Positions 17,281 to 53,778 are shown, counted from the stretch's first letter. The stretch is 64,000 nucleotides of DNA from Pseudomonadota bacterium (GCA_021781965.1 JAJXVU010000004.1:1-64000), one strand, 5' to 3'. The notes: a model not told the origin generated them from the sequence alone. Program-made: numbers and translations.

Positions 17281-18930
17281 TTAGCCTATTATAACAGGTT
17301 CCCATTGCTTAGTATTTAAATCTAGTTTGCACAAATTGGTAATTCCGTGTTTCTTAACGTACGTCAATACACGTACATCATAATCACTATTATTAGGGTT
17401 AGAAAAATTCCAGTCTGGGGGGTTAAATGACGCTATTCCATTAATAGTCGGAATTTGTATCTGTTCCGCTATCATCATTGCTGTTACATTATGGGGGTAT
17501 ATCTTCACAATATCGCTACTTTTAGAATTTTGTTCCGCCCAACCTGAAACATAAAATGCCTCACATTCTTTTGGTGGCAAGCCATTTGGCAATGAGACTT
17601 TGTTTAGCTCTGCATTTCGATTTAAATTTAAATAGGGCTGATTTATTTCTTCACCAATCATTAAAGCACATAGTAAAAAAAGAATAGGTGCTGTTAGTTG
17701 TTGTGTCGATAAATAACGTATCGCAATAATAGTGATGGGAAAAGCAAGAAAAAGTTGGTATGTTAAGATTGCATTCAGAGCCTTCGCTCCCGGAAATAAA
17801 TGGTAAATAAAGAACCAGGCGCTATGGTTCGCTATATTTAATGTAAATGCCCATGTTATAAACGTAGCAAAAATAAAAGCACAATCAATTGTATTTTCTT
17901 TTGTTCTTATTTTTATGGTGTAAATACAGCCGCATACAAAAAGAAAGAATAAGATAAACGGAAATCCTGTGCTATAGTATTCACCATCATTGAACGAATA
18001 ATGCAGCGCGGAAAGGACAGAGTTATAGATGGTCCCCCACATGAAATTAGTTTTACCTACTTGAAGAATTGCCACTAAAGGAGTTGTATTACTTCTAACC
18101 TGAGCATAATTACGCACGCCCACTTCCAGAGATTTTGGTAGATATACTGATATGAAAGGTAACAAGAAAAGTAAAGAAATAACTACAACAAAAAGGATAG
18201 ACCAATAATTATCCCGAATTTTGTTTTTTACCTCTATTATCTTTTGTTTTCCGCCCAACAGCAACAACATTATAGAAAAAGTAAATAAGAAAAAAAGAAA
18301 GAACCATGCCATATAAAAACAAGTTAAGCACCATGCTCCGAAAAATAATCCAGAAAAAGCCCCTTTTTTTCGAAATTGCGGCAGATCATTCTCCCACAGC
18401 GCTTTTGTGGCTGCCCATATAAGCATAAACAAGGTTGGAGCAAATGCAACGGTGGCTAACTGCAATCGTGAACTATGTAAAATCATACCATTACTTAAAG
18501 TAAACAGCAGAGCAATAAACAATGCCCAATAGAATGTAAAAGAGAAATATCTTCTAGATAATAAAAACATCCCAATAAAACCAAAAGACTTTATTACCAG
18601 GGCCGCCAAATCGCTTGCAATAAAAGGATCCAGCCCTGAAAATCTAAATATAGAATAAGGAATACCAATCAAAAAATAGCCGTCTGTCTGCGCAATGGTT
18701 TTTGTATAAGGGAAAAAATAATTAATATATGACCACTGTTCTATACCTAAAAACACATGATACCAATGCTCAAGAATAGTTGTCATAATGACAGCGTCAT
18801 AAGCGTCCCCAGGTAACAAGGTAAAATGGTTAGAGAATTCATATCTGTCTATAATCAATAAAGAAATAGCTAACACAGAAAAGATTAAAAATAATTTCCA
18901 TATAAAATCTAGTTTTCTATTTACTGCCAT
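17281..18930 (-). CDS. GT-C type membrane glycosyltransferase
   Basis: A 549-residue integral membrane protein with about 11-12 hydrophobic segments and a short soluble C-terminus, typical of GT-C enzymes that use polyprenyl-phosphate sugars on the periplasmic face. An acidic site follows the first membrane segment (LLPGDAYDAVIMTTILEH), as in GT-C folds. I chose the ATG at 18930 (MAVNRKLDF) because TAGGGG lies upstream, and a start at 18981 would overlap the neighbour. The two genes just upstream encode a small flippase and a GT2 lipid-sugar synthase. The three therefore look like a complete donor-synthesis, flipping and transfer module. Confidence 0.8.
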   Translation of the reverse strand: MAVNRKLDFIWKLFLIFSVLAISLLIIDRYEFSNHFTLLPGDAYDAVIMTTILEHWYHVFLGIEQWSYINYFFPYTKTIAQTDGYFLIGIPYSIFRFSGLDPFIASDLAALVIKSFGFIGMFLLSRRYFSFTFYWALFIALLFTLSNGMILHSSRLQLATVAFAPTLFMLIWAATKALWENDLPQFRKKGAFSGLFFGAWCLTCFYMAWFFLFFLFTFSIMLLLLGGKQKIIEVKNKIRDNYWSILFVVVISLLFLLPFISVYLPKSLEVGVRNYAQVRSNTTPLVAILQVGKTNFMWGTIYNSVLSALHYSFNDGEYYSTGFPFILFFLFVCGCIYTIKIRTKENTIDCAFIFATFITWAFTLNIANHSAWFFIYHLFPGAKALNAILTYQLFLAFPITIIAIRYLSTQQLTAPILFLLCALMIGEEINQPYLNLNRNAELNKVSLPNGLPPKECEAFYVSGWAEQNSKSSDIVKIYPHNVTAMMIAEQIQIPTINGIASFNPPDWNFSNPNNSDYDVRVLTYVKKHGITNLCKLDLNTKQWEPVIIG

Positions 18931-18937
18931 AATACCC

Positions 18938-19297
18938 CTATCTATCAATTCCGTACACTGAAATCCAAACACCCAACGCAATAAATCCAGCCCCTATAAA
19001 ATTATTCCATCGTATACTTTCACCTAAAAAAAAGTGCGCTAAAATAGGCACTATAAAAAAAGCTAATGCGACGAAAGGGTAAGCTATCTGTAACGAGCTG
19101 GTTTTTAAAACAAATATCCACATTAACGTGGCAATAAAATATACGAAAAAAGCTAATAATAATTTCAGATTTAATATGCTATGCAATATACCCGCACTAG
19201 AAAAATCAAAATCTTTAGCGGCTATCTTAAATAAAATTTGCCCGACAGACAAAGCAATAACGGTTAAAATCGTAAAAATTACCTGCAGAAAAGGCAT
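18938..19297 (-). CDS. Small four-helix EamA/SMR-type transporter, probable lipid-sugar flippase
   Basis: A 119-residue protein made of four membrane helices (IFTILTVIALSVGQILFKIA; LLLAFFVYFIATLMWIFVL; IAYPFVALAFFIVPILAHFFL; FIGAGFIALGVWISVYG), the layout of ArnE/ArnF and small multidrug-resistance proteins. Its position between a GT2 polyprenyl-phosphate sugar synthase and a GT-C transferase suggests that it moves the undecaprenyl-linked sugar across the inner membrane, probably as a dimer. ArnE/ArnF work this way for aminoarabinose. A role in drug export cannot be excluded but is less likely here. Confidence 0.8.
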   Translation of the reverse strand: MPFLQVIFTILTVIALSVGQILFKIAAKDFDFSSAGILHSILNLKLLLAFFVYFIATLMWIFVLKTSSLQIAYPFVALAFFIVPILAHFFLGESIRWNNFIGAGFIALGVWISVYGIDR

Positions 19298-19310
19298 AAC
19301 TTCTCCTTAT

Positions 19311-20285
19311 TCATTTATCTTTAATGGTATTCAAATGTAGTGGTCGTCTGGGAACCGAGGCTATATCATATGCTAAAAATGCCAAGATTAACTGAAAGCC
19401 TAATATCAATGGTAGTACAGATAGCATTACTGTTCCTAAGGGGGTTATTATTCCACTATGCGAAGAAAATAACCAATGATATAGCCCAAAGACAAATCCA
19501 AATATTAACATGCAGCCCCCCAAAGGAAGCTCAAATGAAGCCAAAGACATATCTCTTAAATAATAATTATAGAAAATTCTTTTACATAAATTTTTTAAAT
19601 GCTTAAATAAGAATTCACCTATAATCTTAGAAATTTTCAAATGACTCATTTCATTACCATATTTTGCATCCATCGGTATATCAATTACAACGGCCCGCAA
19701 AATATTAAGCTGAAAAAGCATATCCGTCTCAAAAAAGTAACGTTGGCTTATTTTATCGTACTGCAAGTGTCGCGCAATATCACTATGTATAGCTGTGTAG
19801 CCGTTAGTAGGGTCAAATAAATCCCAATATCCAGATGAAAGTTTAGTCATAAAAGAAAGCGCTGCATTACCTAATAGCCGTGCTTTAGGCATGGCTTGTA
19901 TTTTTCTAAGATCAAAAAAACGGTTTCCTTTAGTATAATCTGCTTGGCCATTTATAATAGGAGCAACAAAATCTAAAATTAAGCGCGGATCCATTTGCCC
20001 ATCACCATCTAATTTAATCATAATATCCATTTCTTCGGCAATTGCGGCTTTATAGCCTTCAATCACCGCTCCGCCAACACCTTTATTTTCTATATTTCGA
20101 ATGATAGTAATTCGCTTATCTTTGCAGTTCTCAGCAACAAAATCACCTGAATGATCTGGACAATTATCATCAATAATATAGATGCGGCTAATTTCCATAC
20201 CAATTTGATCAATAACCCCCAGAATATGTTCTTTGACTCTATAACAGGGGATAACGACAGCTATTCTAATTGTTGGATGGGTCAT
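19311..20285 (-). CDS. GT2 polyprenyl-phosphate glycosyltransferase (DPM1/GtrB/ArnC type)
   Basis: A 324-residue GT2 enzyme that should transfer a sugar from a nucleotide donor to undecaprenyl phosphate at the cytoplasmic face. Residues 1-235 are the GT-A domain: VVIPCYRVKEHI, IIDDNCPDHSG, then the metal-binding KLDGDGQMDP (DxD) and the later FFETDMLFQL. Two membrane helices follow at about 250-270 and 285-310, as in GtrB and ArnC. It is the first gene of the ten-gene minus-strand operon. The sugar is not predictable; with GDP-mannose and GDP-perosamine made next door, those are candidates. Confidence 0.88.
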   Translation of the reverse strand: MTHPTIRIAVVIPCYRVKEHILGVIDQIGMEISRIYIIDDNCPDHSGDFVAENCKDKRITIIRNIENKGVGGAVIEGYKAAIAEEMDIMIKLDGDGQMDPRLILDFVAPIINGQADYTKGNRFFDLRKIQAMPKARLLGNAALSFMTKLSSGYWDLFDPTNGYTAIHSDIARHLQYDKISQRYFFETDMLFQLNILRAVVIDIPMDAKYGNEMSHLKISKIIGEFLFKHLKNLCKRIFYNYYLRDMSLASFELPLGGCMLIFGFVFGLYHWLFSSHSGIITPLGTVMLSVLPLILGFQLILAFLAYDIASVPRRPLHLNTIKDK

Positions 20286-20757
20286 TTATGCAAAACCTTT
20301 TTAACTATCTAAATTTTATCACATATTTAGGGCCCATATCAAATAATGTAACCCTTTGAAATAAATGAAAGTTTCTTTAGGCGGTAAAGCTTACTGTCGA
20401 CTTCATTCCCTTTCTTATCACGGTTTTACGCACTAATTTTCATTAAGTTTATATAAGGCCCTAAGGATGGTTGTGTCATTCACCATTCTTTCTCTATATA
20501 TTTTGGTGGGCGCCCTTGGAGCTGAGCTAGAATAATACATTTTATTATCAATTCAGTTGATACAATTTCTATATTATATTTGTTGGTCTTTTGCTCCCAG
20601 GAGGCTAAAAAAGGGTCTGGCTACTCCAGTGTTGAGATTAATTATCTCGTGGGATAGTATAAATTTTTATTAAGGTCTGTTGACATTATTGCCTTCTAGA
20701 CTTTTCTGTTATACTAAGCTCTTGACAATTTGCTTATTACTTAAAACTTGGGACAAA
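20286..20757. promoter_or_regulatory. Divergent intergenic region with extended -10 promoter
   Basis: This gap separates the minus-strand polyprenyl-sugar operon from the plus-strand arabinose-type operon and must carry promoters for both. On the plus strand, TGT-TATACT at 20707-20715 fits an extended -10 box about 43 bases before the ATG at 20758. The TTGACA at 20680 is 24 bases away and so is not its -35. I saw no gene, repeat or clear terminator in the remainder. Confidence 0.45.
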
Positions 20758-22725
20758 ATGATAATGAATGTTAAACTATTTAATAGAACCAGTATATGGG
20801 TAGCACTCTTTTTTATAGTTGCTATTGTACTTGTTTTTGCAAGTCGATCCACCATTCTTTTAGACAATTTTGAAACAGGCGATGCCGCTGCAAACACACT
20901 ACTGATTCTTGATGCGAAGTCATTTCATTTGTGGGTAGGTAACTACTCCCGCATTGGGTTCAACCACCCTGGCCCAGCAATTTTATATGTTCTTGCAGCG
21001 GGTGAAGTATTGTTTTATGACTTAACCAATTTAGTTAAAGTACCTTTTTCTGGTCAACTAATTGCAGGCGTATTTTATAATGCATTTTGGATTTGTCTGC
21101 TAGGAAGCCTTTTTTTTCGCATGCTTTCATCTAAAACCTCAGCCACCTTAAGTTTTGTTGTATTTCTTTTTACAGTTTCGCTACTGAACCACCAATTTTT
21201 TACTTCTATTTGGTTCCCTTTCTTATATTTCTTTCCATTTGCAGTTGCTTTACTTTCTCTGGCAAGATTAGCTGAAGGTAAAACAGACTCAATGATATTT
21301 CTAGCACTTTCTTGCGGTTTTCTTATTAATGGGCATGTATGTTTCGTACCAGTATTAGGCATTATGTTTCTTGGAATTATAATCTATAATTTTATTTATA
21401 ATCACGACAGGCCTGAGTTGCGAATTTTTAGTTTCGTGTTTCTAGAAGAAAACAAGAAAAAGATTTTACTGTTTGCTGGCATTATTTTTATCTTCTTAAT
21501 CCCATTGATGATTACTACTATAAAAGAGTTTCCTGGTCCTATCCCACAATATATTCATTTTGGATCTCGTCATGCTGCAAATAACTTAATTCAATCTACT
21601 AATTATATTAGTACGTATTGGGGCGGCGTAGCCGCGATGCTTATTGGTATATTAGCATGTTGCTCTTTATTTTCTCAGCAAGATAAAAATAATCATTGGC
21701 TGCATGGTGTAGCCGCTGCTATATTATCTGCAACGGCTGCAGCTCTTTTCTATGCTAAATTTGGTGTAGATATGCTGGACATGCAATATATTGAGTACTT
21801 TTATTATGCAGCACCCGCCTTGCTTGCTGCAGCATTAACATCCACGCTATTTCAATACTCACAATTTAAAATACCTAAATTTATTTTTATCTTGCTAACC
21901 ATAGCAACTATACTTGGATTTTTTTATCAAATTAATGAAGGCCCTTATAAAGCGCCAACATCCAAAGAAAATTATGTTACAGATATTTATAACCAACTTA
22001 AAATACGAAAAAATAATCAACGAATTGTCCTGGACTTGGATAACTTAAGGGCTTGGGAAAAAGTCTGGGAAACCATTGTAGGCACAGAGGCTTATGCAAA
22101 AAGAACTGGCGACGATCTATTCTGCATTAATAAAAATTGGCACATCTTATTTACCAAGTATGCTCAGTGTAGCGCTGCAGAGCTTCGTTCTGGAAATCGC
22201 TATACTGTCACTGTCAAGGACAACTCAAAACAAACATTGTCTAAAGAAGATTTTCAAGCGGGCGGATTATTATTTATTCACTATGAGCCTCCCGTATTAA
22301 ATAGGCTTGGATATATTTCTATTCGAGATAACCCGAAAATTTTTAATAGTTATATCTTGGATAAAGGCTGGTCAACAACTGAATCAGATCTTGTTTGGTC
22401 AATAGGACACAACGCAAGTCTTAACCTAAACATTGCCCAAAGTGCCAAAGCAAAGTTAATCCATATTGATTTAGGGGCATTTTTACCTGATCAAAAGCAC
22501 CAACAAACCATTAAAATATTGATAGAGGGAAATGAAGTAAGCTCAGCCAATTTTACCTGGGATAATAATAGAAAAACAGTCGTAGTGCCGCTACAGGAGA
22601 AATCTGGAAATTTACATCTTACCATCCTAATTGAACACCCCCTATCTCCAAACCTCTTTGGGCCTTCACAAGATACGCGAGAGTTAGGAGTTTCTCTTTA
22701 CGGCCTCCAAGTAATCGAAAAATAA
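20758..22725 (+). CDS. GT-C type membrane glycosyltransferase with NHPGP motif
   Basis: A 655-residue membrane protein with about ten helices up to residue 410 and a soluble C-terminal domain of about 230 residues, probably periplasmic. After helix 1 comes an acidic loop (NFETGDAAANTLLILDA), then NYSRIGFNHPGPAILYVL. To my recollection, (F/W)xHPGP is a conserved motif of a GT-C-like family frequent in actinobacteria. A TTG at 20680 opens the frame further upstream, but the ATG at 20758 gives a clean N-terminus. It heads the operon that encodes the DprE1/DprE2-like enzymes, so a polyprenyl-phosphate arabinofuranose donor is a reasonable guess. Confidence 0.75.
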   Translation: MIMNVKLFNRTSIWVALFFIVAIVLVFASRSTILLDNFETGDAAANTLLILDAKSFHLWVGNYSRIGFNHPGPAILYVLAAGEVLFYDLTNLVKVPFSGQLIAGVFYNAFWICLLGSLFFRMLSSKTSATLSFVVFLFTVSLLNHQFFTSIWFPFLYFFPFAVALLSLARLAEGKTDSMIFLALSCGFLINGHVCFVPVLGIMFLGIIIYNFIYNHDRPELRIFSFVFLEENKKKILLFAGIIFIFLIPLMITTIKEFPGPIPQYIHFGSRHAANNLIQSTNYISTYWGGVAAMLIGILACCSLFSQQDKNNHWLHGVAAAILSATAAALFYAKFGVDMLDMQYIEYFYYAAPALLAAALTSTLFQYSQFKIPKFIFILLTIATILGFFYQINEGPYKAPTSKENYVTDIYNQLKIRKNNQRIVLDLDNLRAWEKVWETIVGTEAYAKRTGDDLFCINKNWHILFTKYAQCSAAELRSGNRYTVTVKDNSKQTLSKEDFQAGGLLFIHYEPPVLNRLGYISIRDNPKIFNSYILDKGWSTTESDLVWSIGHNASLNLNIAQSAKAKLIHIDLGAFLPDQKHQQTIKILIEGNEVSSANFTWDNNRKTVVVPLQEKSGNLHLTILIEHPLSPNLFGPSQDTRELGVSLYGLQVIEK

Positions 22726-22895: not shown

Positions 22896-24329
22896 ATGAA
22901 CACAATACCCTTAATTGTTGATCTAGACGGCACACTCATCCATACTGACATGTTACACGAATCTATGATCAGCGCTTTCCGTGAAAAACCACTGGTTAAT
23001 ACACTGAAAATGCCTCATTGGCTATCTAGAGGTAAAGCCTTTCTAAAACAACGGTTAGCCCAAAGTTCCAGCTTTAATGCCGCTTCTTTACCCTATAATA
23101 AAGGATTTTTAAGCTGGTTAAAGCAGCAGCATGCACAGGGACGTAAACTAATACTCTGTACTGCCTCCGATTATGTAATTGCTTCAGCAATCGCTGCATA
23201 CCTGAATATTTTTGACGAAGTCATGGCCAGCGATGGCTCTACTAATTTAGCACACAAACATAAAGCTGAAGCATTAACACGACGCTTTGGGCTTCATGGT
23301 TTTGATTACGCAGGAAATTCACGCGCTGATCTTCCAGTATGGTCTCAAGCCAGACACGCTATATTTGTGAATACACCCACTAAAATTATAAAAAAAGCAA
23401 GCGCTACCTGTAAAACAGAAAAAGTGTTTTCTTTCCCGTCTATAGAAACAAGTTCTTGGCAGCATACATTGCGTACCCATCAATGGTTGAAAAACATTCT
23501 CCTCTTTATACCTTTATTAGCCGCCCATAAAATGACTGACCTTCACGCATGGTCAGCACTTTTTTTTGCATTTATTTCTTTTAGCCTCTGTGCATCAGCA
23601 GTCTACATTGCTAATGATTTACTGGATTTAGACAATGACCGTCAGCACCCGCGTAAACATAAACGTCCTTTTGCCTCTGGGAAAGTTCCCATTTGGCTCG
23701 GGTTTATTTTATCGCCTTGCTTGTTACTCGCCAGTATTGCTTTCGGTACAATAGCTGGAACTACATTCATAATTTGCCTTGTCGCATATTTTATTCTAAC
23801 TTGCGCCTACTCTTTACGCTTGAAACGTTTGGTTATTGTAGATTGCCTTACGCTAGCAATTCTTTATACGCTGCGTATCATCGCCGGCGCAGCTGCTGTA
23901 GAAATAACTCTCTCTTTTTGGCTGCTTGCTTTTTCTATATTCTTATTTTTATCTTTGGCTTTTGTTAAACGCTACGCTGAACTATGGTCACAAAAATTAA
24001 TGCATCAAGAAAAATTGCATGGCCGTGGCTATCACACCACCGATGCCCCCCTTATACAAATCTTTGGTATCAGTGCAGCTTATGTCAGCGTACTAGTATT
24101 AGCTCTGTATATTAACAGTGATGCAGTTAGATTCTTATATCGCACTCCAGATGTCATTTGGGGGGTGGTACCCTTACTATTATTTTGGACTAACTGGATG
24201 TGGTTACGTGCACATCGAGGTGAAATGCACGATGATCCACTTGTTTTTGCTGTTAAAGATAAAGCCAGTTTACTGACGGGATTTCTCTTCGTGCTAGTCC
24301 TTGTTTTAGGCACGGTAAGATGGTCATGA
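22896..24329 (+). CDS. HAD phosphatase fused to UbiA prenyltransferase (polyprenyl-P phosphoribosyltransferase type)
   Basis: A 477-residue two-domain protein. Residues 1-180 form a HAD phosphatase with motif I VDLDGTLIHTD, motif II LCTAS, the motif III lysine in HKHKAEAL and an acidic motif IV (GNSRADLPVW). Residues 190-477 form a UbiA-family membrane domain with about eight helices, the prenyl-diphosphate motif NDLLDLDNDRQHPRKHKRPF and a second Asp-rich loop near VKRYAEL. That wording matches decaprenyl-phosphate phosphoribosyltransferase (Rv3806c type), which joins PRPP to a polyprenyl phosphate. The HAD domain could remove the 5-phosphate. It is translationally coupled to the DprE1-like gene downstream. 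Confidence 0.88.
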   Translation: MNTIPLIVDLDGTLIHTDMLHESMISAFREKPLVNTLKMPHWLSRGKAFLKQRLAQSSSFNAASLPYNKGFLSWLKQQHAQGRKLILCTASDYVIASAIAAYLNIFDEVMASDGSTNLAHKHKAEALTRRFGLHGFDYAGNSRADLPVWSQARHAIFVNTPTKIIKKASATCKTEKVFSFPSIETSSWQHTLRTHQWLKNILLFIPLLAAHKMTDLHAWSALFFAFISFSLCASAVYIANDLLDLDNDRQHPRKHKRPFASGKVPIWLGFILSPCLLLASIAFGTIAGTTFIICLVAYFILTCAYSLRLKRLVIVDCLTLAILYTLRIIAGAAAVEITLSFWLLAFSIFLFLSLAFVKRYAELWSQKLMHQEKLHGRGYHTTDAPLIQIFGISAAYVSVLVLALYINSDAVRFLYRTPDVIWGVVPLLLFWTNWMWLRAHRGEMHDDPLVFAVKDKASLLTGFLFVLVLVLGTVRWS

Positions 24330-25618
24330 CAAAAGTATATTCCTGGGGTCGCTTAAATGCATTTGAACATGAGGTAATTGACTTATCTACTTCCCTATTG
24401 CCCCATGCATTAAAACATCCAAAATCTGGACTGGCATATGGCATGGGTCGTAGTTACGGTGATGTCTGCCTCAATCCAGATGGCATTTTATGGAATGCAC
24501 GTACGCTGAATCATTTCAAACATTTTGATGCACAAACAGGAATTTTAAGTTGTGAGGCAGGCGTATTAATAGCAGATATTCAACGGCTGATGGTTCCTAA
24601 AGGGTGGATGTTGGCCGTTACTCCGGGAACGCAATCGATAACCGTTGGCGGTGCTATTGCCAATGATATCCATGGTAAAAATCATCATCGTTACGGCTCG
24701 TTTGGCGATCATGTTTTAGCCTTCGATTTATTGCGTACCGATGGCACATCTATTCATTGCCGCCCGCAAGAACAAAGCGATTGGTTTACAGCCACTGTGG
24801 GTGGCATGGGATTAACCGGCATTATTACTACTGTACATTTACAACTACGCACCGTACCGGGCCCTTGGTTTAATAGTGAAACGCTTGTCTATCAGTCATT
24901 AGAAGAATTTTTTGAACTCGCCGACGGTTCTGAAGATAATTGGGAATATACCGTCTCTTGGATAGATTGTTTTTCCAAGCACAAAGGGCGCGGTCTGTTC
25001 ATGCGCGCTAACCACCACCAAGATGATCGTTTTATATCTCAAAAAAAGAAATTAAAAATACCCTTTACACCGCCTTTTTCTTTAATTAATCGGTATTCTT
25101 TACCTCTTTTCAATGCATTGTACTATTATTTAAACGCCGCAAATTCTGGCAAAAAAATATCTCATTATGAATCTTTCCTGTATCCTCTAGATCATATCTC
25201 CGAATGGAACCGTCTTTATGGACCTAAAGGTTTTTTTCAATATCAATGCGTACTGCCGCGCTCTACGGGTGTAGAAACTGTCAAAAGTATATTAAATGAA
25301 ATTGCTCGTTCTGGAGAAGGTTCTTTCTTAAATGTGTTAAAGACTTTTGGCGATCGAAAAGCGCCAGGCATGATGAGTTTTCCACAATCCGGTGTTACCT
25401 TAGCGCTTGATTTTCCAAATAAAGGAATCCGTACATTGCAATTATTGACCAGGCTTGATAGCATCGTGCGAGAAGCAGAAGGGCGCCTATATATGGCCAA
25501 AGATGCGCGTATGCCTAAAGACTTGTTCTACTCAGGCTATCCGCGTTTAGCAGAATTTTTACAATATCGCGATCCAGGCATTAGTTCAGCCCTATCGCGA
25601 CGCTTAATAGGGGATTAA
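24320..25618 (+). CDS. dprE1: DprE1-like FAD oxidase (polyprenyl-phosphoryl-ribofuranose 2-oxidase)
   Basis: Oxidises the 2-OH of polyprenyl-phosphoryl-beta-D-ribose to the keto sugar, first half of the epimerisation to D-arabinose. It is a VAO-type flavoprotein. The FAD domain shows YGMGRSYGDVCLNPDG near 42 and VGGAIANDIHGKNHHRYGSFG near 115. The substrate domain shows QYQCVLPRSTG, FLNVLKTFG and YMAKDAR, matching DprE1 regions that hold the catalytic Lys. The position of the M. tuberculosis drug-target Cys387 (NICVDFP) aligns with Ala here (TLALDFP). It overlaps the HAD-UbiA gene; the ATG at 24326, making an ATGA overlap, is an equally good start. Confidence 0.88.
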   Translation: MVMTKVYSWGRLNAFEHEVIDLSTSLLPHALKHPKSGLAYGMGRSYGDVCLNPDGILWNARTLNHFKHFDAQTGILSCEAGVLIADIQRLMVPKGWMLAVTPGTQSITVGGAIANDIHGKNHHRYGSFGDHVLAFDLLRTDGTSIHCRPQEQSDWFTATVGGMGLTGIITTVHLQLRTVPGPWFNSETLVYQSLEEFFELADGSEDNWEYTVSWIDCFSKHKGRGLFMRANHHQDDRFISQKKKLKIPFTPPFSLINRYSLPLFNALYYYLNAANSGKKISHYESFLYPLDHISEWNRLYGPKGFFQYQCVLPRSTGVETVKSILNEIARSGEGSFLNVLKTFGDRKAPGMMSFPQSGVTLALDFPNKGIRTLQLLTRLDSIVREAEGRLYMAKDARMPKDLFYSGYPRLAEFLQYRDPGISSALSRRLIGD

Positions 25619-25622
25619 TCAT

Positions 25623-26375
25623 TTGACTAATAAAACTAGAATCGTTATCGTGGGAGCTACTTCAGGCATTGCTGAACATTGTGCGCGTCTTTGGGTTTTG
25701 GAGAAAGAGGTAGAATTAATCTTAATTGGGCGTAACCAGAAGAAAATGCAAGCTATCGCTGACGATTTGCGGGTACGTGGTCCACACGCAGAAATCCAAG
25801 TAATTGAGGCAAATTTTACTGATCCTAAAACCATTGCTTCATTAGCCGATACTATCGCCAGCCAAGGCAAAATAGATCGCGTCCTGATTGCACACGGTGT
25901 TTTGCCCAAACAAGAAGAATGCCAGCAGAACTTAACTGTGTGTTACAACACATTGATGATCAACGCAATTTCACCTATTTTATTTGCCGAAGCTTTTATA
26001 AGTCATTTGGAAAAAAGTAATCATGGCACATTGGCTATTATCGGTTCAGTAGCCGGCGATAGAGGGCGAAAATCTATTTATACTTATGGTTCTACCAAGG
26101 CTTTAGTTGAGCATTATGTGAAAGGTTTACAACACCGTTTGGCACGCTCATCGATAAAAATTGTTCTCATTAAACCGGGGCCTACAGATACTGCCATGAC
26201 TGCACACCTCAAAGCAAACGGGGCCAAGTTAGCTGATGTGGATATGGTTGCCGCAGAGTGTGTACGCGCCATAGCTTGCGGTAAACCGTTCATCTACACC
26301 CCTGCTAAATGGCGTTTGATTATGGGGATCATTAGGCATTTACCCAATTTTATCTTTAAGAAATTAGATATTTAA
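25623..26375 (+). CDS. dprE2: DprE2-like short-chain reductase (keto-ribofuranose to arabinofuranose)
   Basis: A 250-residue classical SDR that would reduce the DprE1 product to polyprenyl-phosphoryl-D-arabinofuranose. The Rossmann motif is VGATSGIAEHCARLW, NAG is replaced by AHG (VLIAHGVLP), and the active site is GSVAGDRGRKSIYTYGSTKA (Ser, Tyr-x3-Lys), where GDRGR is the DprE2 hallmark. The start is a TTG, supported by AGGGG about ten bases upstream and by tight spacing (4 bases) from the DprE1-like stop. The C-terminus (MGIIRHLPNFIFKKL) is amphipathic, as in DprE2. Confidence 0.88.
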   Translation: MTNKTRIVIVGATSGIAEHCARLWVLEKEVELILIGRNQKKMQAIADDLRVRGPHAEIQVIEANFTDPKTIASLADTIASQGKIDRVLIAHGVLPKQEECQQNLTVCYNTLMINAISPILFAEAFISHLEKSNHGTLAIIGSVAGDRGRKSIYTYGSTKALVEHYVKGLQHRLARSSIKIVLIKPGPTDTAMTAHLKANGAKLADVDMVAAECVRAIACGKPFIYTPAKWRLIMGIIRHLPNFIFKKLDI

Positions 26376-26396
26376 TATTTACCTTAGGTGAAATGT

Positions 26397-27335
26397 ATGG
26401 AAAATAAAAAAATAGTCATTCCTGGCGGCGCAGGCTTAGTAGGTCAAAATTTAGTTGCTCAATTTAAAAAATCAGGCTATCGAAATTTAGTGGTTATTGA
26501 TAAACATAAAGCTAATCTGGCCATATTAAGAAAGTTGCATTCAGATATTGTTATAGAACAAGCTGATTTAGCAGAACCAGGTCAGTGGGAAGCACATTTT
26601 AAAGATGCCGATACAGTGATTATGTTACAAGCACAAATTGGCGCACCTACACTTAACCCTTTTGTACGCAATAACATAGAAACGACAAAACGTATCTTAG
26701 AGCTGATTAAACAATACAATGTACCTTATACCGTACACATCAGTTCATCTGTGGTAGAGTCCATTGCGGATGATTACTATACACAAACCAAAAAACAGCA
26801 AGAAGATTTGGTATTAGCCAGCGGTATATCTTGTATTATTCTACGCCCTACACTGATGTTCGGCTGGTTCGATCGTAAGCATTTAGGCTGGTTATCGCGG
26901 CTGATGAGAAGGATCCCCATATTTCCTATCCCTGGGAATGGTCGTTTCATGCGCCAACCCTTATATGCCAATGACTTTTGCCGTATTATCGTTAGCTGTG
27001 TGCAGAGTAAAATGCGAGATAAAGTGTTCAATATCACGGGCTTAGAAAAAATAGATTACATTGATATGATTCGAACAATAAAAAAGGAGGTCAATGCCAA
27101 AACCATAATTCTCTCTATTCCATACCATTTGTTTTATATTTTATTAAAAGTTTGGGCTTTGTTTGACAAGAACCCACCCTTTACCGCGCAACAGCTAAAA
27201 GCATTAGTTGCTCATGATGAATTTGAAGTGATAGATTGGCCACATATTTTTAATGTAGAATCCACACCGTTTCAGCAAGCCATTCATGAGACCTTCAATG
27301 ACCCTATTTATTCTAAAATTGTAATGGAGTTTTAA
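26397..27335 (+). CDS. NAD-dependent sugar epimerase/dehydratase
   Basis: A 312-residue extended SDR. The N-terminal cofactor motif is GGAGLVGQNLVAQF, an unusual TVIMLQAQIG occupies the place of the LAA motif, SSSVVES is the Ser region, and Tyr-x3-Lys is YTQTKKQ. The substrate end has RPTLMFGWFDRKH. I chose the ATG at 26397 because AGGTG lies 6 bases upstream; a GTG at 26388 is in frame. The substrate is unknown. Next to a UGM-like flavoprotein and a GtrA flippase it probably modifies a nucleotide or lipid-linked sugar. Confidence 0.8.
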   Translation: MENKKIVIPGGAGLVGQNLVAQFKKSGYRNLVVIDKHKANLAILRKLHSDIVIEQADLAEPGQWEAHFKDADTVIMLQAQIGAPTLNPFVRNNIETTKRILELIKQYNVPYTVHISSSVVESIADDYYTQTKKQQEDLVLASGISCIILRPTLMFGWFDRKHLGWLSRLMRRIPIFPIPGNGRFMRQPLYANDFCRIIVSCVQSKMRDKVFNITGLEKIDYIDMIRTIKKEVNAKTIILSIPYHLFYILLKVWALFDKNPPFTAQQLKALVAHDEFEVIDWPHIFNVESTPFQQAIHETFNDPIYSKIVMEF

Positions 27336-27337
27336 GC

Positions 27338-28651
27338 GTGGATAAGAAACGTATCGCCATATTAGGTGCTGGCCCCATGGGTTTAGCAGTTGCTTATCAA
27401 CTAGTGTTAGATGGCCATCAACCGGTTATCTTTGAAGCTGATGATCGCGTCGGTGGGATGACCGCCATGTTTGACTTTAATGGCTTAATGATTGAGCGAT
27501 ATTACCATTTTCATTGTACTTCGGATAAGGACTTCTTGCAAATGCTTCAGGAATTGGGTATAGCCGATAAAATGCGGTGGGTTGAGACTAGAATGGGTTA
27601 TTGGTATCAGGGACAATTACAAGACTGGGGTAATCCTTTAGCCTTACTCAAATTTAAGGGTCTTGGCCTAATAGCCAAAATTCGTTATGGTCTACATGCT
27701 TTTTTATCAACGAAACGTAAAGATTGGCGGCCTTTAGATGGTTTAGAAGCCACTACTTGGATTAAACGCTGGATTGGCAAAGAAGCTTTCGACGTATTAT
27801 GGCACCGTTTATTTGAATATAAATTTTATCATTTCTCTCACAACTTATCAGCAGCATGGATTTGGAGTCGAATCCGCCGTATAGGCCGATCGCGCTATAA
27901 TCTTTTTCATGAGAAACTAGGGCACCTGGAAGGCGGTTCCAGCACTTTACTCAATGCCATGAAATCTTATATAGAAACACACGGGGGAGAATTTCGTTTA
28001 AATCATTGTGTATCGGAAGTTTGCATTGAAAATGGTGAAATTAAGGGCATAAAAGTAAAAGAAAGCTTCGAAAGTTTCGACACAGTTATCAGCACTATTC
28101 CATTACCCTACATCCCCAAAATAGTTCCTACTTTGCCTCAGGCACTATTGAATCAATACCACTCTATTAAAAACATCGCCGTGGTTTGTGTTATTGCAAA
28201 ATTAAAAAAGTCAGTATCGAATAATTTCTGGGTTAACATTAATGATGAAAGAATGGACATTCCAGGCTTGGTAGAATATAGTAATTTACGCCCTTTAGAA
28301 CACTCTATTGTTTATGTCCCGTTTTACATGCCCGCAGAGCATCCAAAGTTTTCAGATGAAAATAATGTGTTTATTGATAAAGTGCGTCTCTATTTAAAAA
28401 TGATTAACCCTGAACTCACAAATGATGACTTTATTGATATACGTGCTAGCCGCTACCGTTATGCACAACCTATTTGTCCGCCGCAGTATCTAACCTCTTT
28501 GCCTTCCTATAAATTACCCATCAAAAATCTTTGGATTGCTGACACTTCTTACTACTATCCTGAAGATCGCGGCATCTCTGAAAGTATTGGCTTTGGCAGG
28601 AAGATGGCTATAGAATGTGTTAGTACCTTTTTAGAAAGGAATAGCAGATGA
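27338..28651 (+). CDS. FAD-dependent oxidoreductase of the UDP-galactopyranose mutase / protoporphyrinogen oxidase-like superfamily
   Basis: A 437-residue flavoprotein with the FAD dinucleotide motif ILGAGPMGLAVAYQLVLDG and the following FEADDRVGGM, then ERYYHFHCTSD. VISTIPLP precedes the C-terminal half, and the FAD-closing motif NLWIADTSYYYPEDRGISE is near the end. Relatives occur in many polysaccharide loci, often beside an epimerase and a GtrA protein, without a proven reaction. A ring-contracting mutase or a sugar oxidase are options. The start is GTG with GGAG upstream. Its stop overlaps the gtrA-like start (ATGA). Confidence 0.75.
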   Translation: MDKKRIAILGAGPMGLAVAYQLVLDGHQPVIFEADDRVGGMTAMFDFNGLMIERYYHFHCTSDKDFLQMLQELGIADKMRWVETRMGYWYQGQLQDWGNPLALLKFKGLGLIAKIRYGLHAFLSTKRKDWRPLDGLEATTWIKRWIGKEAFDVLWHRLFEYKFYHFSHNLSAAWIWSRIRRIGRSRYNLFHEKLGHLEGGSSTLLNAMKSYIETHGGEFRLNHCVSEVCIENGEIKGIKVKESFESFDTVISTIPLPYIPKIVPTLPQALLNQYHSIKNIAVVCVIAKLKKSVSNNFWVNINDERMDIPGLVEYSNLRPLEHSIVYVPFYMPAEHPKFSDENNVFIDKVRLYLKMINPELTNDDFIDIRASRYRYAQPICPPQYLTSLPSYKLPIKNLWIADTSYYYPEDRGISESIGFGRKMAIECVSTFLERNSR

Positions 28652-29049
28652 TCTCTGATTTTATTTCCCCACAATTTTTAAAATTTATTTTCTGCGGAAG
28701 CATCGCTGCTCTCGTTAATTTTGGCTCACGGTTTATCTTCAATCTATGGTTTAGTTTTGCGGTTGCTATTGTTTTTGCTTATATCTGTGGAATGATAACG
28801 GCTTTCATATTAGCAAAATGGTTTGTATTTAAAAATAGCCACTTACCTCTACAGCATTCCGCTCTACGCTTTTTAATTATCAATCTATTAGCTGTTGTGC
28901 AAACCCTTGGGATTAGCTTAGGGCTAGCGTTTTATCTTTTACCCATGCTAGGTGTCACCGTTTTTATAAAAGAAATCGCTCACATTGTAGGGATTATTAC
29001 GCCACTTTTTTCAAGCTATATAGGGCATAAACGCTGGTCTTTTTCTTAA
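28648..29049 (+). CDS. GtrA-family membrane protein, probable lipid-linked sugar flippase
   Basis: A 133-residue protein with four membrane helices, basic residues between them, and the GtrA layout (FLKFIFCGSIAALVNFGSRF at the start, IGHKRWSF at the end). GtrA proteins flip undecaprenyl-phosphate sugars for O-antigen modification. In mycobacteria a GtrA-family protein (Rv3789) sits beside dprE1 and has been linked to arabinose-lipid metabolism. That parallel supports a role for this gene with the DprE1/DprE2-like pair a few genes upstream. It overlaps the preceding flavoprotein gene by 4 bases. Confidence 0.85.
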   Translation: MISDFISPQFLKFIFCGSIAALVNFGSRFIFNLWFSFAVAIVFAYICGMITAFILAKWFVFKNSHLPLQHSALRFLIINLLAVVQTLGISLGLAFYLLPMLGVTVFIKEIAHIVGIITPLFSSYIGHKRWSFS

Positions 29050-29133: not shown

Positions 29134-29964
29134 TTGAACACCAACATAGCAACAGCCCCCCTCCCACGTACCTTCCACCTGCGCCCGGCAATCACCGATC
29201 TACGGCAAGGTTTAGCTGCCTGGCGTATTTGGTGGAGCTTGGGTTGGCAAGACATACGCCTACGTTACCGCCGATCACAGCTAGGGCCCTTTTGGATCAC
29301 GCTTAGCACCGCCATTATGATTTACAGCATGGGGTTCTTATACGCCAAGTTATTCAAGATCGATTTGTCCACTTATTATCCTTATTTGGCTACGGGCTTA
29401 ATTACTTGGACCTTCATCTCTACAATTATCCTCGAAGCTAACGAAGCTTTCGTTGAAAATACCGGCTTCATACGCCAAACTTGCCTACCTTTTTCCATTT
29501 ATATTTTGCGTTTGTTAACTCGTAATTTTATAGTTTTAGTGCATAACATTTTACCTGTTTTGCCGATTTTGATTTATTATAAAATCGCTCCTACTTCTGC
29601 TGGTGTATTTTATTTGCTCTTCGGTTTAATTTTATTTTTGAGTATAGGCTATAGTTTTGGTCTGCTACTGGCTATGTTGGGCAGTCGTTTTCGTGACATG
29701 AAACCCATTGTAGCAAGCCTTGTACAAGTCTGTTTCTTATTAACGCCTATATTATGGCAACATTCTATGCTATCGCCTAAATTACAAGCATTGATGAACT
29801 TCAACCCTTTTTATCAATTAATACAACTATTACGCGCACCTATGTTAGGACAGATCCCTTCGGCAAATACCTTAACCTATTGCATCATATTAGCAATAGT
29901 GGGATTAGTTTTAATGGTCATTGTTTTGGCCAGATGTCGCCACCGTATTGCGTTTTGGGTGTAG
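29134..29964 (+). CDS. wzm: ABC-2 type polysaccharide export permease
   Basis: A 276-residue inner-membrane permease that with Wzt exports the finished polysaccharide. After an amphipathic N-terminus (WWSLGWQDIRLRYRRSQLGPFW, typical of Wzm/KpsM) come six membrane helices, with the family motif FNPFYQLIQLLRAPMLG near the end. The start is a TTG with GAGG six bases upstream. It is followed by wzt 5 bases later. Together with the D-rhamnose and GT4 genes this indicates an ABC-transporter-dependent, not Wzx/Wzy-dependent, O-chain. Confidence 0.92.
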   Translation: MNTNIATAPLPRTFHLRPAITDLRQGLAAWRIWWSLGWQDIRLRYRRSQLGPFWITLSTAIMIYSMGFLYAKLFKIDLSTYYPYLATGLITWTFISTIILEANEAFVENTGFIRQTCLPFSIYILRLLTRNFIVLVHNILPVLPILIYYKIAPTSAGVFYLLFGLILFLSIGYSFGLLLAMLGSRFRDMKPIVASLVQVCFLLTPILWQHSMLSPKLQALMNFNPFYQLIQLLRAPMLGQIPSANTLTYCIILAIVGLVLMVIVLARCRHRIAFWV

Positions 29965-29969
29965 TCACT

Positions 29970-30728
29970 ATGTCAACTATTAAGTTATCTCATGTTACTT
30001 TAGATTTTCCTGTTTATGGAGCCAATACCCGTTCCTTGAAGAAGAGTTTGGTATCCTTGGTCACAGGTGGTAGCATAAAACAAGAAAGCAACAGCGTTAC
30101 CTTCGTACGAGCCTTAGAAAACGTTTGTCTGGAATTATCGTCGGGCGATACACTGGCTTTAATTGGCCACAATGGCGCAGGCAAAAGTACCTTATTACGC
30201 GTTTTAGCAAAAGTCTATACGCCCGCTATCGGTAGAGTAAAAATTAAAGGCCGCATTTCTTCTTTATTAGATTTAAGTTTAGGTATTGATGCAGAGTCCA
30301 CGGGTTATGAAAATATTGTATTAAGTGGTTTATTACGTGGCATGTCCAAGAAAGACATTGAGGCTAACAAAAAAAACATCGCCGAATTCAGTGAATTAGG
30401 CGAATATTTAGCTATGCCTGTACGCACTTACTCTAGCGGTATGCAGTTACGCCTTGCCTTTAGTATTGCCACTAGTTTTTCGCCAGAAATTTTGTTGTTA
30501 GATGAGGTTATGGGCGTAGGCGACTCTTCTTTCATGGAGAAATCAAAACAACGCATGACACAATTGGTCGCTGAATCCGATATCGTCGTTTTTTCCTCCC
30601 ATTCTAATGATCTAGTTCGTAAGTTTTGTAAAAAAGCGTTATGGCTGGATAAAGGGCATGTCAAAGCATTTGGCCTAGTCGATGATGTTTTGAAAGCCTA
30701 TGATGCCGCTAACCCTACCGCAGCTTAA
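29970..30728 (+). CDS. wzt: Polysaccharide export ABC transporter ATP-binding protein
   Basis: A 252-residue ATPase that energises Wzm. Walker A is GHNGAGKSTLL near residue 72, the signature is YSSGMQLRLAF, and Walker B is ILLLDEVMGVGD. It ends soon after the nucleotide-binding domain, so it lacks the C-terminal carbohydrate-binding domain that recognises capped chains in E. coli O9a. The chain is therefore probably exported without terminal-cap recognition, as in KpsT or Klebsiella O2a systems. I chose the ATG at 29970; the longer frame from 29880 lies inside wzm. The partial parB copy begins at its stop codon. Confidence 0.93.
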   Translation: MSTIKLSHVTLDFPVYGANTRSLKKSLVSLVTGGSIKQESNSVTFVRALENVCLELSSGDTLALIGHNGAGKSTLLRVLAKVYTPAIGRVKIKGRISSLLDLSLGIDAESTGYENIVLSGLLRGMSKKDIEANKKNIAEFSELGEYLAMPVRTYSSGMQLRLAFSIATSFSPEILLLDEVMGVGDSSFMEKSKQRMTQLVAESDIVVFSSHSNDLVRKFCKKALWLDKGHVKAFGLVDDVLKAYDAANPTAA

Positions 30729-30893
30729 ACTCCATGACTAAAAAGTAGAACTACAACAGCGGCCTATAGAAGCCTACAGCGCGGCTGCTTTCAACCGCGA
30801 CATCATTTAGACCGAAGCCTTAGCGGAATTGGCGCAATCCATACGGCAAATGGGGGGGTATTACAGCCCATCTTTGTTAGAACGTTAGCTAAA
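30726..30893 (+). pseudogene. Decayed duplicate of the parB-like gene 5' end
   Basis: About 165 bases align almost end to end with the first part of the intact parB-like gene at 32193, from the last bases before its ATG to about codon 55. Shared runs include AGTAGAACTACAACAGC and CAACCGCGACATCATTT. A base loss in the A-run after the start creates a TAG at the fifth codon, and further indels and a TAG after ACATCATT break the frame. It begins exactly at the wzt stop and ends where an IS256-type remnant begins. It is not translated as ParB. Confidence 0.85.
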
Positions 30894-30995
30894 CAGCGTC
30901 TGCTTGAGCTTGATGAGAAATGGGGCAGCAAATATCCTATGGTATTACGTTTCTGGCAGACTAAATGGGACGGGCTAACGGCCTTTACGCTTATT
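30894..30995 (+). mobile_element. IS256-family transposase remnant
   Basis: In frame from 30894 the translation contains LDEKWGSKYPMVLRFWQTKW followed by DGLTAFT. This matches the late part of IS256/Mutator-type transposases (L-xx-F-xx-KW-xx-KYP-x5-W-xx-NW-x5-F). Only about 30 codons survive. There are no visible inverted ends or target duplication, so it is a dead fragment. The last codons of the opposite-strand FkbM gene are written over it. Confidence 0.7.
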
Positions 30996-31862
30996 AACTC
31001 TATTTAACTTTAATAATCTATAGTTTATCGTGGCTTTGAATCGCCTAATCAACTCAATAACACGCCACGCTTTAGAACATCTTATTTCGGCAAATATGTT
31101 TTCATATGTGCTGATGCGATCTTGAAGCACTCTATTCTCAACCAGAAAACTTTCTTTAGACACGCTATTCTCAACGAGAAGACTTTGTAGATAATCAATT
31201 CGCCGTAAAGAAAAAAGAGATAGCTTATCCGATTTTATAAAATAGGCATTTACATGTGAGGAAATGTCGTAAATATAGTTAAGCTGAGATAACGCGCTGC
31301 GTATTGCATCAAAAGATAAATGTCCTACTTCAATGCAAATAACATCTGGCAATACTTCACACCCTTGCATCCCTTCGATGACAGATAATTCATGTCCTTC
31401 AACATCTAGAACAAAAAGATCTACTTGTGTTACGTTTTCTTTGTTAATAAAATCAGTCCATGTACATAATGGCACTTGCACTTCTTGAAAAGTACAACCC
31501 ATTTCTTGTAATGCTGCTTTATGATCTATGGTGTGCGTCAATGAGCCATTGCCAAAGTTCTTCCCCAATACAGGATGATCAACAGCCTTAAAAGTAGCTT
31601 CGCCAATTTTATTGGATAAGGCAAAATTTAAATTTCTTGAAAGAGGGCGATTCTGACATAACCGCTCATAAATCCAAGGCACCGGTTCAATATTATAACC
31701 TTTCCATCCCATTGATTCTTCAAATGCCTTGCAAGAACATTCTGTTAAACCATCGAATGCACCACATTCCACAAATGTACCTTTAATCCCCTTATTCGGG
31801 AAATAACGCTCGAAAATAAATTGATCGACAGGGGGTTCAAACTGTCCATAGAAATTTTTCAT
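30975..31862 (-). CDS. FkbM-type methyltransferase
   Basis: A 295-residue protein. Residues 1-205 are an intact FkbM SAM-dependent methyltransferase domain: motif I is GTFVECGAFDGLTECS near 33, followed by WKGYNIEPVPWIYERL, DLFVLDVEGHELSVIEGM and PDVICIEVGHL. Residues 210-295 form a heptad-rich segment (VENSVSKESFLVENRVLQDR) and a basic tail. The final residues (VNKRKGR) are encoded by the IS256 remnant, so the natural C-terminus seems to have been replaced. It stands alone between the decayed and intact parB copies and probably methylates a sugar of the neighbouring glycan. Confidence 0.85.
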   Translation of the reverse strand: MKNFYGQFEPPVDQFIFERYFPNKGIKGTFVECGAFDGLTECSCKAFEESMGWKGYNIEPVPWIYERLCQNRPLSRNLNFALSNKIGEATFKAVDHPVLGKNFGNGSLTHTIDHKAALQEMGCTFQEVQVPLCTWTDFINKENVTQVDLFVLDVEGHELSVIEGMQGCEVLPDVICIEVGHLSFDAIRSALSQLNYIYDISSHVNAYFIKSDKLSLFSLRRIDYLQSLLVENSVSKESFLVENRVLQDRISTYENIFAEIRCSKAWRVIELIRRFKATINYRLLKLNRVNKRKGR

Positions 31863-32192
31863 ATTACTTAGTCCTAATTATCGTTATTTATTGTACACAT
31901 CTTAACGCCATAAAGTCAAATCATAAAGCTCTCCTCCTAATAATAATAATTGTTATATTCAAGGTGCGAAAAAAAGCGGGGCTATTTTAGAGAATTAATA
32001 TAGCATAAAGCAGGAAGAATAGTGTGCAAAAATAATTCAAACATTTCGAGCACAACCGCTCTTTCTGTCTAAATTAGGCTATTCTTCATATTATAATAAA
32101 AAACCTTGCCTCTAACCCCATCACCATGCTATGATTCTGTTCAAGATTAATCCCATATATAAATTACCAGAGACTTTCTCCCCCTAAACCCC
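31863..32192. other. Intergenic stretch upstream of parB-like gene
   Basis: AT-rich spacer between two divergent genes. It contains the parB-like promoter listed separately and presumably a promoter for the minus-strand FkbM gene. A run of AAT/TAA triplets (CCTAATAATAATAATTG near 31940) is the only other visible structure. Confidence 0.4.
32106..32135 (+). promoter_or_regulatory. Sigma-70 extended -10 promoter of parB-like gene
   Basis: TTGCCT at 32106-32111 and TATGAT at 32130-32135 are 18 bases apart, with TG at 32127-32128. The ATG follows 57 bases after the -10. CCATGNTA and ATTCT around the -10 are shared with the wzm promoter. Confidence 0.55.
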
Positions 32193-32984
32193 ATGGCTAA
32201 AAAAGTAGAACTACAACAGCTGCCTATAGAAGCATTGCAGCGCGGCCGTTTTCAACCGCGACATCATTTTGACGCCGAGGCCTTAGCGGAATTGGCTCAA
32301 TCTATACGACAAATGGGCGGATTATTACAGCCCATCGTTGTTAGGACATTAGCGCATAACCGCTATGAAATCATCGCGGGCGAACGTCGTTGGCGCGCAT
32401 GTCAACTTGCCGAATTAGCTACAGTCAGTTGCTTAGTGGGTGAATACAGCGATGAGCAAGCACTGCAGGCCGCCATTGTTGAAAATATCAATCGCAGCGA
32501 TTTAAATTTAATTGAAGAAGCCAAAGCCTATTTACGGTTACAAGAAGATTTTGTCTACACACACGATGAAATCGGCGCTTTGGTAGGAAAATCACGCGCT
32601 GCTATTAGCAATTTATTGCGTTTATTAAAACTAGATAATCGCATACAACAGTATCTTATTGAGGGTAACTTAAGCGAAGGCCATGGTAAATTACTGGCGG
32701 GTCTTTCTCCAGATGAACAATATCCATTAGCACATCAATGTGTAGAGAATGATTTAAGCGTACGACAATTGGAACGCTTGATTAAACTAGGTAAAAAAGA
32801 AAATCCTGCGGCTCCGCGTAAAGATCCGAACATTGCTCGCTTAGAAAATACCCTTGCCGAACAAGTAGGTTCACCTGTTGCAGTAGATTACGATGAAAGC
32901 GGCCGAGGCGCTCTACGAATTCAGTTTCAAAATTTGGAAATTTTAGACGGTATTTTGCAGCGCTTAGGTGTAGGGGAAAAATAA
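32193..32984 (+). CDS. ParB/Spo0J family partition-type protein
   Basis: A 263-residue ParB-like DNA-binding CTPase. The N-terminal domain carries the conserved RGRFQPRHHFDAEALAELA, then GLLQPIVVR, and the CTP-binding motif IIAGERRWRAC (GERRxRA). The central helix-turn-helix is THDEIGALVGKSRAAISNLL. The C-terminal part is a dimerisation region. It lies alone, with no parA beside it, convergent with the dot genes. A lone ParB paralogue may act in chromosome partition, nucleoid occlusion or regulation; the usual parAB pair near oriC is not in view. Its own promoter is visible. Confidence 0.9.
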   Translation: MAKKVELQQLPIEALQRGRFQPRHHFDAEALAELAQSIRQMGGLLQPIVVRTLAHNRYEIIAGERRWRACQLAELATVSCLVGEYSDEQALQAAIVENINRSDLNLIEEAKAYLRLQEDFVYTHDEIGALVGKSRAAISNLLRLLKLDNRIQQYLIEGNLSEGHGKLLAGLSPDEQYPLAHQCVENDLSVRQLERLIKLGKKENPAAPRKDPNIARLENTLAEQVGSPVAVDYDESGRGALRIQFQNLEILDGILQRLGVGEK

Positions 32985-53746: not shown

Positions 53747-53778
53747 ATGAAGTTGTTCTCTCAATATGCAAATCCGTT

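Follow-up and report, generated by a model that had tools for sequence, protein, structure and literature searches.

A 64,000-nucleotide stretch of DNA from a Pseudomonadota bacterium (GCA_021781965.1, JAJXVU010000004.1:1-64000; here the window, meaning the full stretch, with coordinates counted from its first letter) carries an operon that, in our best explanation of the whole, probably makes a polyprenyl-phosphate-linked donor of the D-arabinofuranose (D-Araf) type and brings it to the periplasmic side. The evidence comprises homology, catalytic residues, operon structure, and cassette conservation; the core donor pathway is likely, and plain D-Araf in the final glycan is probable, qualified by two further oxidoreductases that the operon encodes. 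A first-pass annotation had reported three adjacent, coupled genes at 22896-26375, for a fusion of HAD and UbiA domains, a DprE1-like oxidase, and a DprE2-like reductase. All three open reading frames (ORFs) were located on the same strand, their family and PDB matches lay far beyond chance, and the quoted motifs were all present in the translations, but the gene set was incomplete. Beyond the DprE2 homologue, the run goes on with genes for an extended short-chain dehydrogenase/reductase (SDR; here EPI), a PRK07233-type oxidoreductase (here FAD), and a GtrA-family membrane protein, all missed earlier. Since neighboring genes overlap or are separated by gaps of at most 12 bp through GtrA, the unit (22896-29049) looks like a six-gene operon (Table 1).

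In Citrobacter youngae, the HAD-UbiA fusion ORF15 makes polyprenyl-phosphate ribofuranose (polyprenyl-P-Ribf), with the HAD aspartate as the phosphatase residue (PMC11127046). The first gene of the window operon is a member of this ORF15-type family, and synthesis of polyprenyl-P-Ribf from phosphoribosyl pyrophosphate (PRPP) is predicted for its product. Pfam places HAD at residues 7-148 and UbiA at 208-447; the fused NCBIfam family NF006088 was matched over residues 2-473 (651 bits; cut-off, 351), and the Rv3806c structure 8j8j was matched at E = 5e-29. The HAD domain keeps D9 and D11 (motif I, nucleophile Asp) and D145. UbiA residues kept are R193, K199, Y237, N240, D241, D244, D248, K254, R257, Y305, and K310; loop II (N-D-x-x-D-x-x-x-D) corresponds to N240, D241, D244, and D248 and the loop IV R/E pair to R359 and E362, with a spacing of 111 residues between the loops, equal to that of ORF15. 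Residue roles were taken from the Rv3806c structure paper (PMC10994848), and 12 of the 13 positions tested are identical to Rv3806c, the sole exception being Gln135, here Thr. The change of Gln135 to Thr or Ser is a clade-wide active-site difference from Rv3806c. The earlier assignment of the HAD domain as the 5-phosphatase is well founded, but for ORF15 it is already published biochemistry (PMC11127046). A scan of genome contigs with the HAD-UbiA protein returned three loci only.

DprE1 structures match the second gene product at E = 2e-75, with the next unrelated family at 6e-10. Residues H118, K120, Q307, Q309, K341, and K394 are identical to mycobacterial His132, Lys134, Gln334, Gln336, Lys367, and Lys418, respectively. 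Three positions are swapped relative to mycobacterial DprE1 (Cys387 to Ala [A362], Asn385 to Thr, and Tyr314 to Leu); among 39 proteobacterial relatives, the Cys387 site is Ala in every one and the Asn385 site is Asn in none. Ala or Ser at Cys387 confers benzothiazinone resistance in Mycobacterium tuberculosis (PMC4608729), and because these compounds need Cys387, the proteobacterial DprE1 homologues examined are predicted to be insensitive to the covalent mechanism. Phylogenetically, the window protein and its relatives joined Mycobacterium smegmatis DprE1 against sugar-lactone oxidases (support, 100/100) in a tree with two outgroup rows only, the mycobacterial row on a long branch, and the long-branched L116 left out. 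A sugar-lactone oxidase identity for the second gene was rejected on the basis of this tree.

The third gene product has DprE2 as its best PDB match (E = 2e-26; next, 8e-15) and keeps the Ser-Tyr-Lys catalytic residues as S142, Y155, and K159. Thirty-nine DprE2-type rows were set apart from seven other SDRs encoded in the same genome as the window (support, 100/99), in a tree that does not settle the placement of the mycobacterial DprE2 row inside the DprE2 group. Both oxidoreductases group with DprE1 and DprE2 and not with sugar-lactone oxidases or with other SDRs of the genome; the tree placement that would have refuted the earlier assignment was not observed. Across the three core proteins, the aligned catalytic-residue swaps are few and common to the proteobacterial family.

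EPI has a YxxxK motif, and its nearest structures are nucleotide-sugar dehydratases/epimerases and NDUFA9-type SDRs. The FAD protein matches NF005560 at 543 bits, with phytoene desaturase, protoporphyrinogen oxidase, and amine oxidases as its nearest structures. Mean column identity is 65% for each. Close FAD proteins (at least 46% identity) were found in 19 loci, window included, and in 17 of these DprE1/DprE2 lie in the same stretch, across alpha-, beta-, and gammaproteobacteria; the two exceptions are a cut contig (L127) and a locus with FAD alone and DprE1 elsewhere in the genome (L108, in G041). Because the 19 loci were gathered partly by FAD or UbiA searches, neither count is independent of the search. 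In a less biased sample of 398 evenly drawn Pseudomonadota genomes, EPI (E 1e-50) and close FAD (E 1e-60) were searched separately and occurred in exactly the same 8 genomes, the window's own among them; the FAD search gave one additional, weak match (33%). Mapped onto the DprE1 tree, the extended state was clustered but did not form one clade (7 changes versus 12.6 in shuffles). No recorded function was found for the EPI/FAD pair, PRK07233 was mentioned nowhere in the literature searched, and viral contigs scanned with the FAD protein gave no match. A UDP-galactopyranose mutase identity for FAD was not supported: mutase structures ranked much lower than those of phytoene desaturase and protoporphyrinogen oxidase, and there was no GLF family match. 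Distant FAD relatives (approximately 30% identity) at two loci without DprE1/DprE2, L133 (9433-10770) and L134 (2967-4307), lie beside a DPMS-type GT2 and beside other membrane-glycan-type genes, respectively; these neighbors hint at a broader tie of the PRK07233 FAD family to polyprenyl-phosphate-sugar chemistry.

The extended cassette bears on the identity of the sugar. C. youngae O1 has Ribf, which a single SDR epimerase, ORF13, turns to xylofuranose (Xylf) in O2 (PMC11127046). With this precedent, the identical distribution of EPI and close FAD in the genome sample, their place inside the pathway operon, and the high conservation of both, it is possible, although clearly the less probable outcome, that the pathway ends in something other than plain D-Araf, with EPI and FAD performing a second oxidation-reduction after DprE1 and DprE2 (e.g., C3 epimerization to D-lyxo) and the modified sugar reaching the glycan. 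However, no close relative of either protein with a solved structure acts on lipid-linked sugars, and the target of the pair might be the polyprenyl carrier instead, or a neighboring step. Somewhat more tentatively still, we suggest that the six-gene cassette makes a pentofuranose beyond D-Araf, with EPI and FAD as a second oxidoreductive pair (for example, C3 inversion to D-lyxofuranose) or through other tailoring; D-lyxofuranose occurs in no solved carbohydrate structure (PMC11127046). With two extra conserved oxidoreductases in the operon, the presence of D-Araf in the glycan deserves less confidence than the first pass gave it.

The GtrA-family protein, a candidate flippase by family match, scored 52.7 bits against PF04138 (gathering score, 26.1), has four hydrophobic segments, and is the final cassette gene in most loci. 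Upstream of the operon lies GTC2, which starts at TTG 20680 or ATG 20764 and has approximately 8 to 10 transmembrane helices followed by a soluble C-terminal part; an invariant GD follows the first helix, and the protein also has a GFNHPGPA motif. GTC2 homologues occur in the cassette in G001 (53%, after DprE2), L130 (36%), and Rhizobium sp. CB3090 (37%, directly before UbiA). The soluble part is absent in G001, recalling the dispensable carbohydrate-binding module of the C. youngae transferase (PMC11127046). The GT-C neighbors proposed in the first pass (20680-22725 and 17281-18981) fit by membrane topology and context, from which this candidate label is drawn, but neither has an informative Pfam or NCBIfam match. 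Single-sequence AlphaFold models (mean predicted local distance difference test, 38.5 for FAD and 40.2 for GTC2) were not used.

Downstream, the order FAD-GtrA-Wzm-Wzt-ParB is kept in G001, where the upstream part was masked and the UbiA region is not visible. Wzm-Wzt-ParB is also kept in G002 and G003, which lack the cassette and differ in the DNA upstream of Wzm; in G004 (66% complete) ParB is kept, and no Wzm or Wzt was seen there. Gene content and order suggest an accessory surface-polysaccharide (O-polysaccharide side-chain) cassette. Over 29134-32984, Wzm-Wzt-ParB is constant and the region upstream of Wzm is species variable, as at a serotype-switching locus.

From these observations, we infer the following route. 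The UbiA domain would use PRPP to attach phosphoribose to a polyprenyl phosphate, presumably undecaprenyl phosphate, its HAD fusion partner would strip the 5-phosphate, and C2 would be oxidized by DprE1 and reduced again by DprE2, yielding polyprenyl-P-beta-D-Araf. GtrA would flip the donor to the periplasm, and EPI and FAD, co-inherited with the pathway, would most likely work on the lipid-linked sugar ahead of this flip. GTC2 may then transfer the pentofuranose, most likely to the O-polysaccharide exported by Wzm/Wzt, an acceptor favored because these genes adjoin the cassette.

Several observations weigh against this route. The second and third proteins score below the cut-offs of the NCBIfam equivalogs NF053785 (352.7 versus 500 bits) and NF053786 (150.8 versus 250 bits), and they are therefore named DprE1 and DprE2 homologues rather than those equivalogs. 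Such scores would also fit a sugar-lactone oxidase and an unrelated SDR placed by chance after a UbiA gene, which we consider very improbable given both trees, the kept active sites, the best PDB matches, and the constant UbiA linkage. Gln135, a ribose contact in Rv3806c, is Thr in the window protein and Thr or Ser in 34 of 34 relatives; GTC2 matches no known family in Pfam, NCBIfam, or PDB; and EPI and FAD may alter the final pentose. A Wzy_C-type O-antigen ligase was not found in the 92% complete genome, despite the ABC-type O-polysaccharide exporter. Together with five pilin-like N-methylation matches in the genome, and with Pseudomonas paraeruginosa, whose pilin carries D-Araf made by a known pathway (PMC12369383), this favors a protein acceptor such as type IV pilin; we regard that acceptor as unlikely, as the cassette abuts Wzm/Wzt at a variable polysaccharide locus and not a pilin gene, and in the C. 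youngae precedent it is O-polysaccharide that is modified (PMC11127046).

The rarity of the pathway had been overstated in the first pass. D-Araf pathways are known not only for the P. paraeruginosa pilin but also for rhizobial Nod factors, which carry D-Araf via noeCHOP (PMC5080398). Among 138 relative genomes, the window's own counted, 32 had a HAD-UbiA or UbiA relative and 30 had DprE1 at E 1e-30, and DprE1 was found in 64 plasmid records, so the three-gene core is common in Proteobacteria. Rhizobium etli has the core without EPI/FAD. The order UbiA-DprE1-DprE2-EPI-FAD-GtrA is identical on plasmids of Burkholderia stagnalis (NZ_CP156687), Rhizobium tumorigenes (NZ_CP117256), Rhodobacteraceae SC52 (CP049031), and Agrobacterium salinitolerans (NZ_CP074394), whose neighboring glycan genes differ from those of the window and whose cassette genes are annotated by generic family names only. 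Within the genus, only the window genome and G001 gave a DprE1 match; at least two of the four congeners lack the cassette, which suggests that it is accessory.

Like C. youngae O1/O2, the window encodes an N-terminal HAD domain fused to UbiA, and the catalytic residues and their spacing agree. The C. youngae scheme, in which a lipid-linked pentofuranose, a flippase, and a GT-C transferase add side chains to O-polysaccharide, is also predicted for the window, with GTC2 as candidate transferase. C. youngae has a MATE flippase and no DprE1/DprE2, whereas the window has GtrA, DprE1/DprE2, EPI, and FAD. The mycobacterial decaprenylphosphoryl-arabinose pathway (Rv3806c, DprE1, and DprE2) has a homologous UbiA, oxidase, and reductase with active sites kept in the window, which differs in having a HAD domain where mycobacteria use Rv3807c as a separate phosphatase, in Ala at Cys387, in the extra EPI and FAD, in a different candidate transferase, and in an accessory rather than cell-wall-core context. 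UbiA and DprE1/DprE2-type D-Araf donor genes are likewise shared with P. paraeruginosa PA7 (PSPA7_6245-6251) and noeCHOP, and DprE1/DprE2 homologues have been reported in candidate systems for Araf-bearing glycans (PMC11127046). The P. paraeruginosa phosphatase is separate and non-HAD (PMC11127046), whereas the predicted phosphatase of the window is the fused HAD domain; acceptors are pilin in P. paraeruginosa and Nod factor for noeCHOP, with O-polysaccharide favored for the window. The core chemistry is already known in Gram-negative bacteria, and the addition here is the EPI/FAD-extended locus.

Table 1. Features of the operon and its flanks in the window
Feature	Coordinates	Strand	Basis
HAD-UbiA fusion (putative polyprenyl-phosphate ribofuranose synthase)	22896..24329	+	Pfam, NCBIfam, PDB, residues
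DprE1 homologue, predicted FAD-dependent polyprenyl-P-ribose 2'-oxidase	24320..25618	+	PDB, residues, tree
DprE2 homologue, predicted SDR 2'-keto reductase	25623..26375	+	PDB, residues, tree
EPI, extended SDR (NAD-dependent epimerase/dehydratase type)	26388..27335	+	Family match, cassette conservation
FAD, PRK07233-type NAD(P)/FAD-dependent oxidoreductase	27338..28651	+	NF005560, cassette conservation
GtrA-family membrane protein, candidate polyprenyl-P-pentofuranose flippase	28648..29049	+	PF04138
GTC2, GT-C-like multi-pass membrane protein, candidate pentofuranosyltransferase	20680..22725	+	Topology, context
Wzm/Wzt-like ABC transporter pair (polysaccharide export)	29134..30728	+	Adjoins cassette, outside it

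Elsewhere in the window, 17281-20285 (minus strand) encodes a GT-C-like protein (566 amino acids), an ArnE/F-like small flippase (119 amino acids), and a DPMS-type GT2, which resemble another three-component glycosylation set, separate from the Araf operon and running divergently from it. DotG (TrbI-like) and DotH/IcmK are encoded beside ParB (34254-36778, minus strand), confirming the Dot/Icm context; the DotH/IcmK match (272 bits) bears out the Dot/Icm assignment of the first pass. ParB is flanked by the same Dot genes in G004 and by topA-side genes in G001. A 571-amino-acid protein with tetratricopeptide repeats and a C-terminal methyltransferase domain is encoded at 52052-53764 (minus strand).

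Through its core, a pathway that is a drug target in mycobacteria reaches a lineage with Dot/Icm, in what looks like an accessory cassette for a surface sugar. In its extended form, the cassette singles out two conserved enzymes inside a pathway of known chemistry, and because EPI and FAD sit in such a pathway, their role is directly testable by comparing the three genes with the longer set. If EPI and FAD do act as a second oxidoreductive pair, the cassette would represent a widespread, undescribed lipid-linked pentofuranose donor in Proteobacteria.

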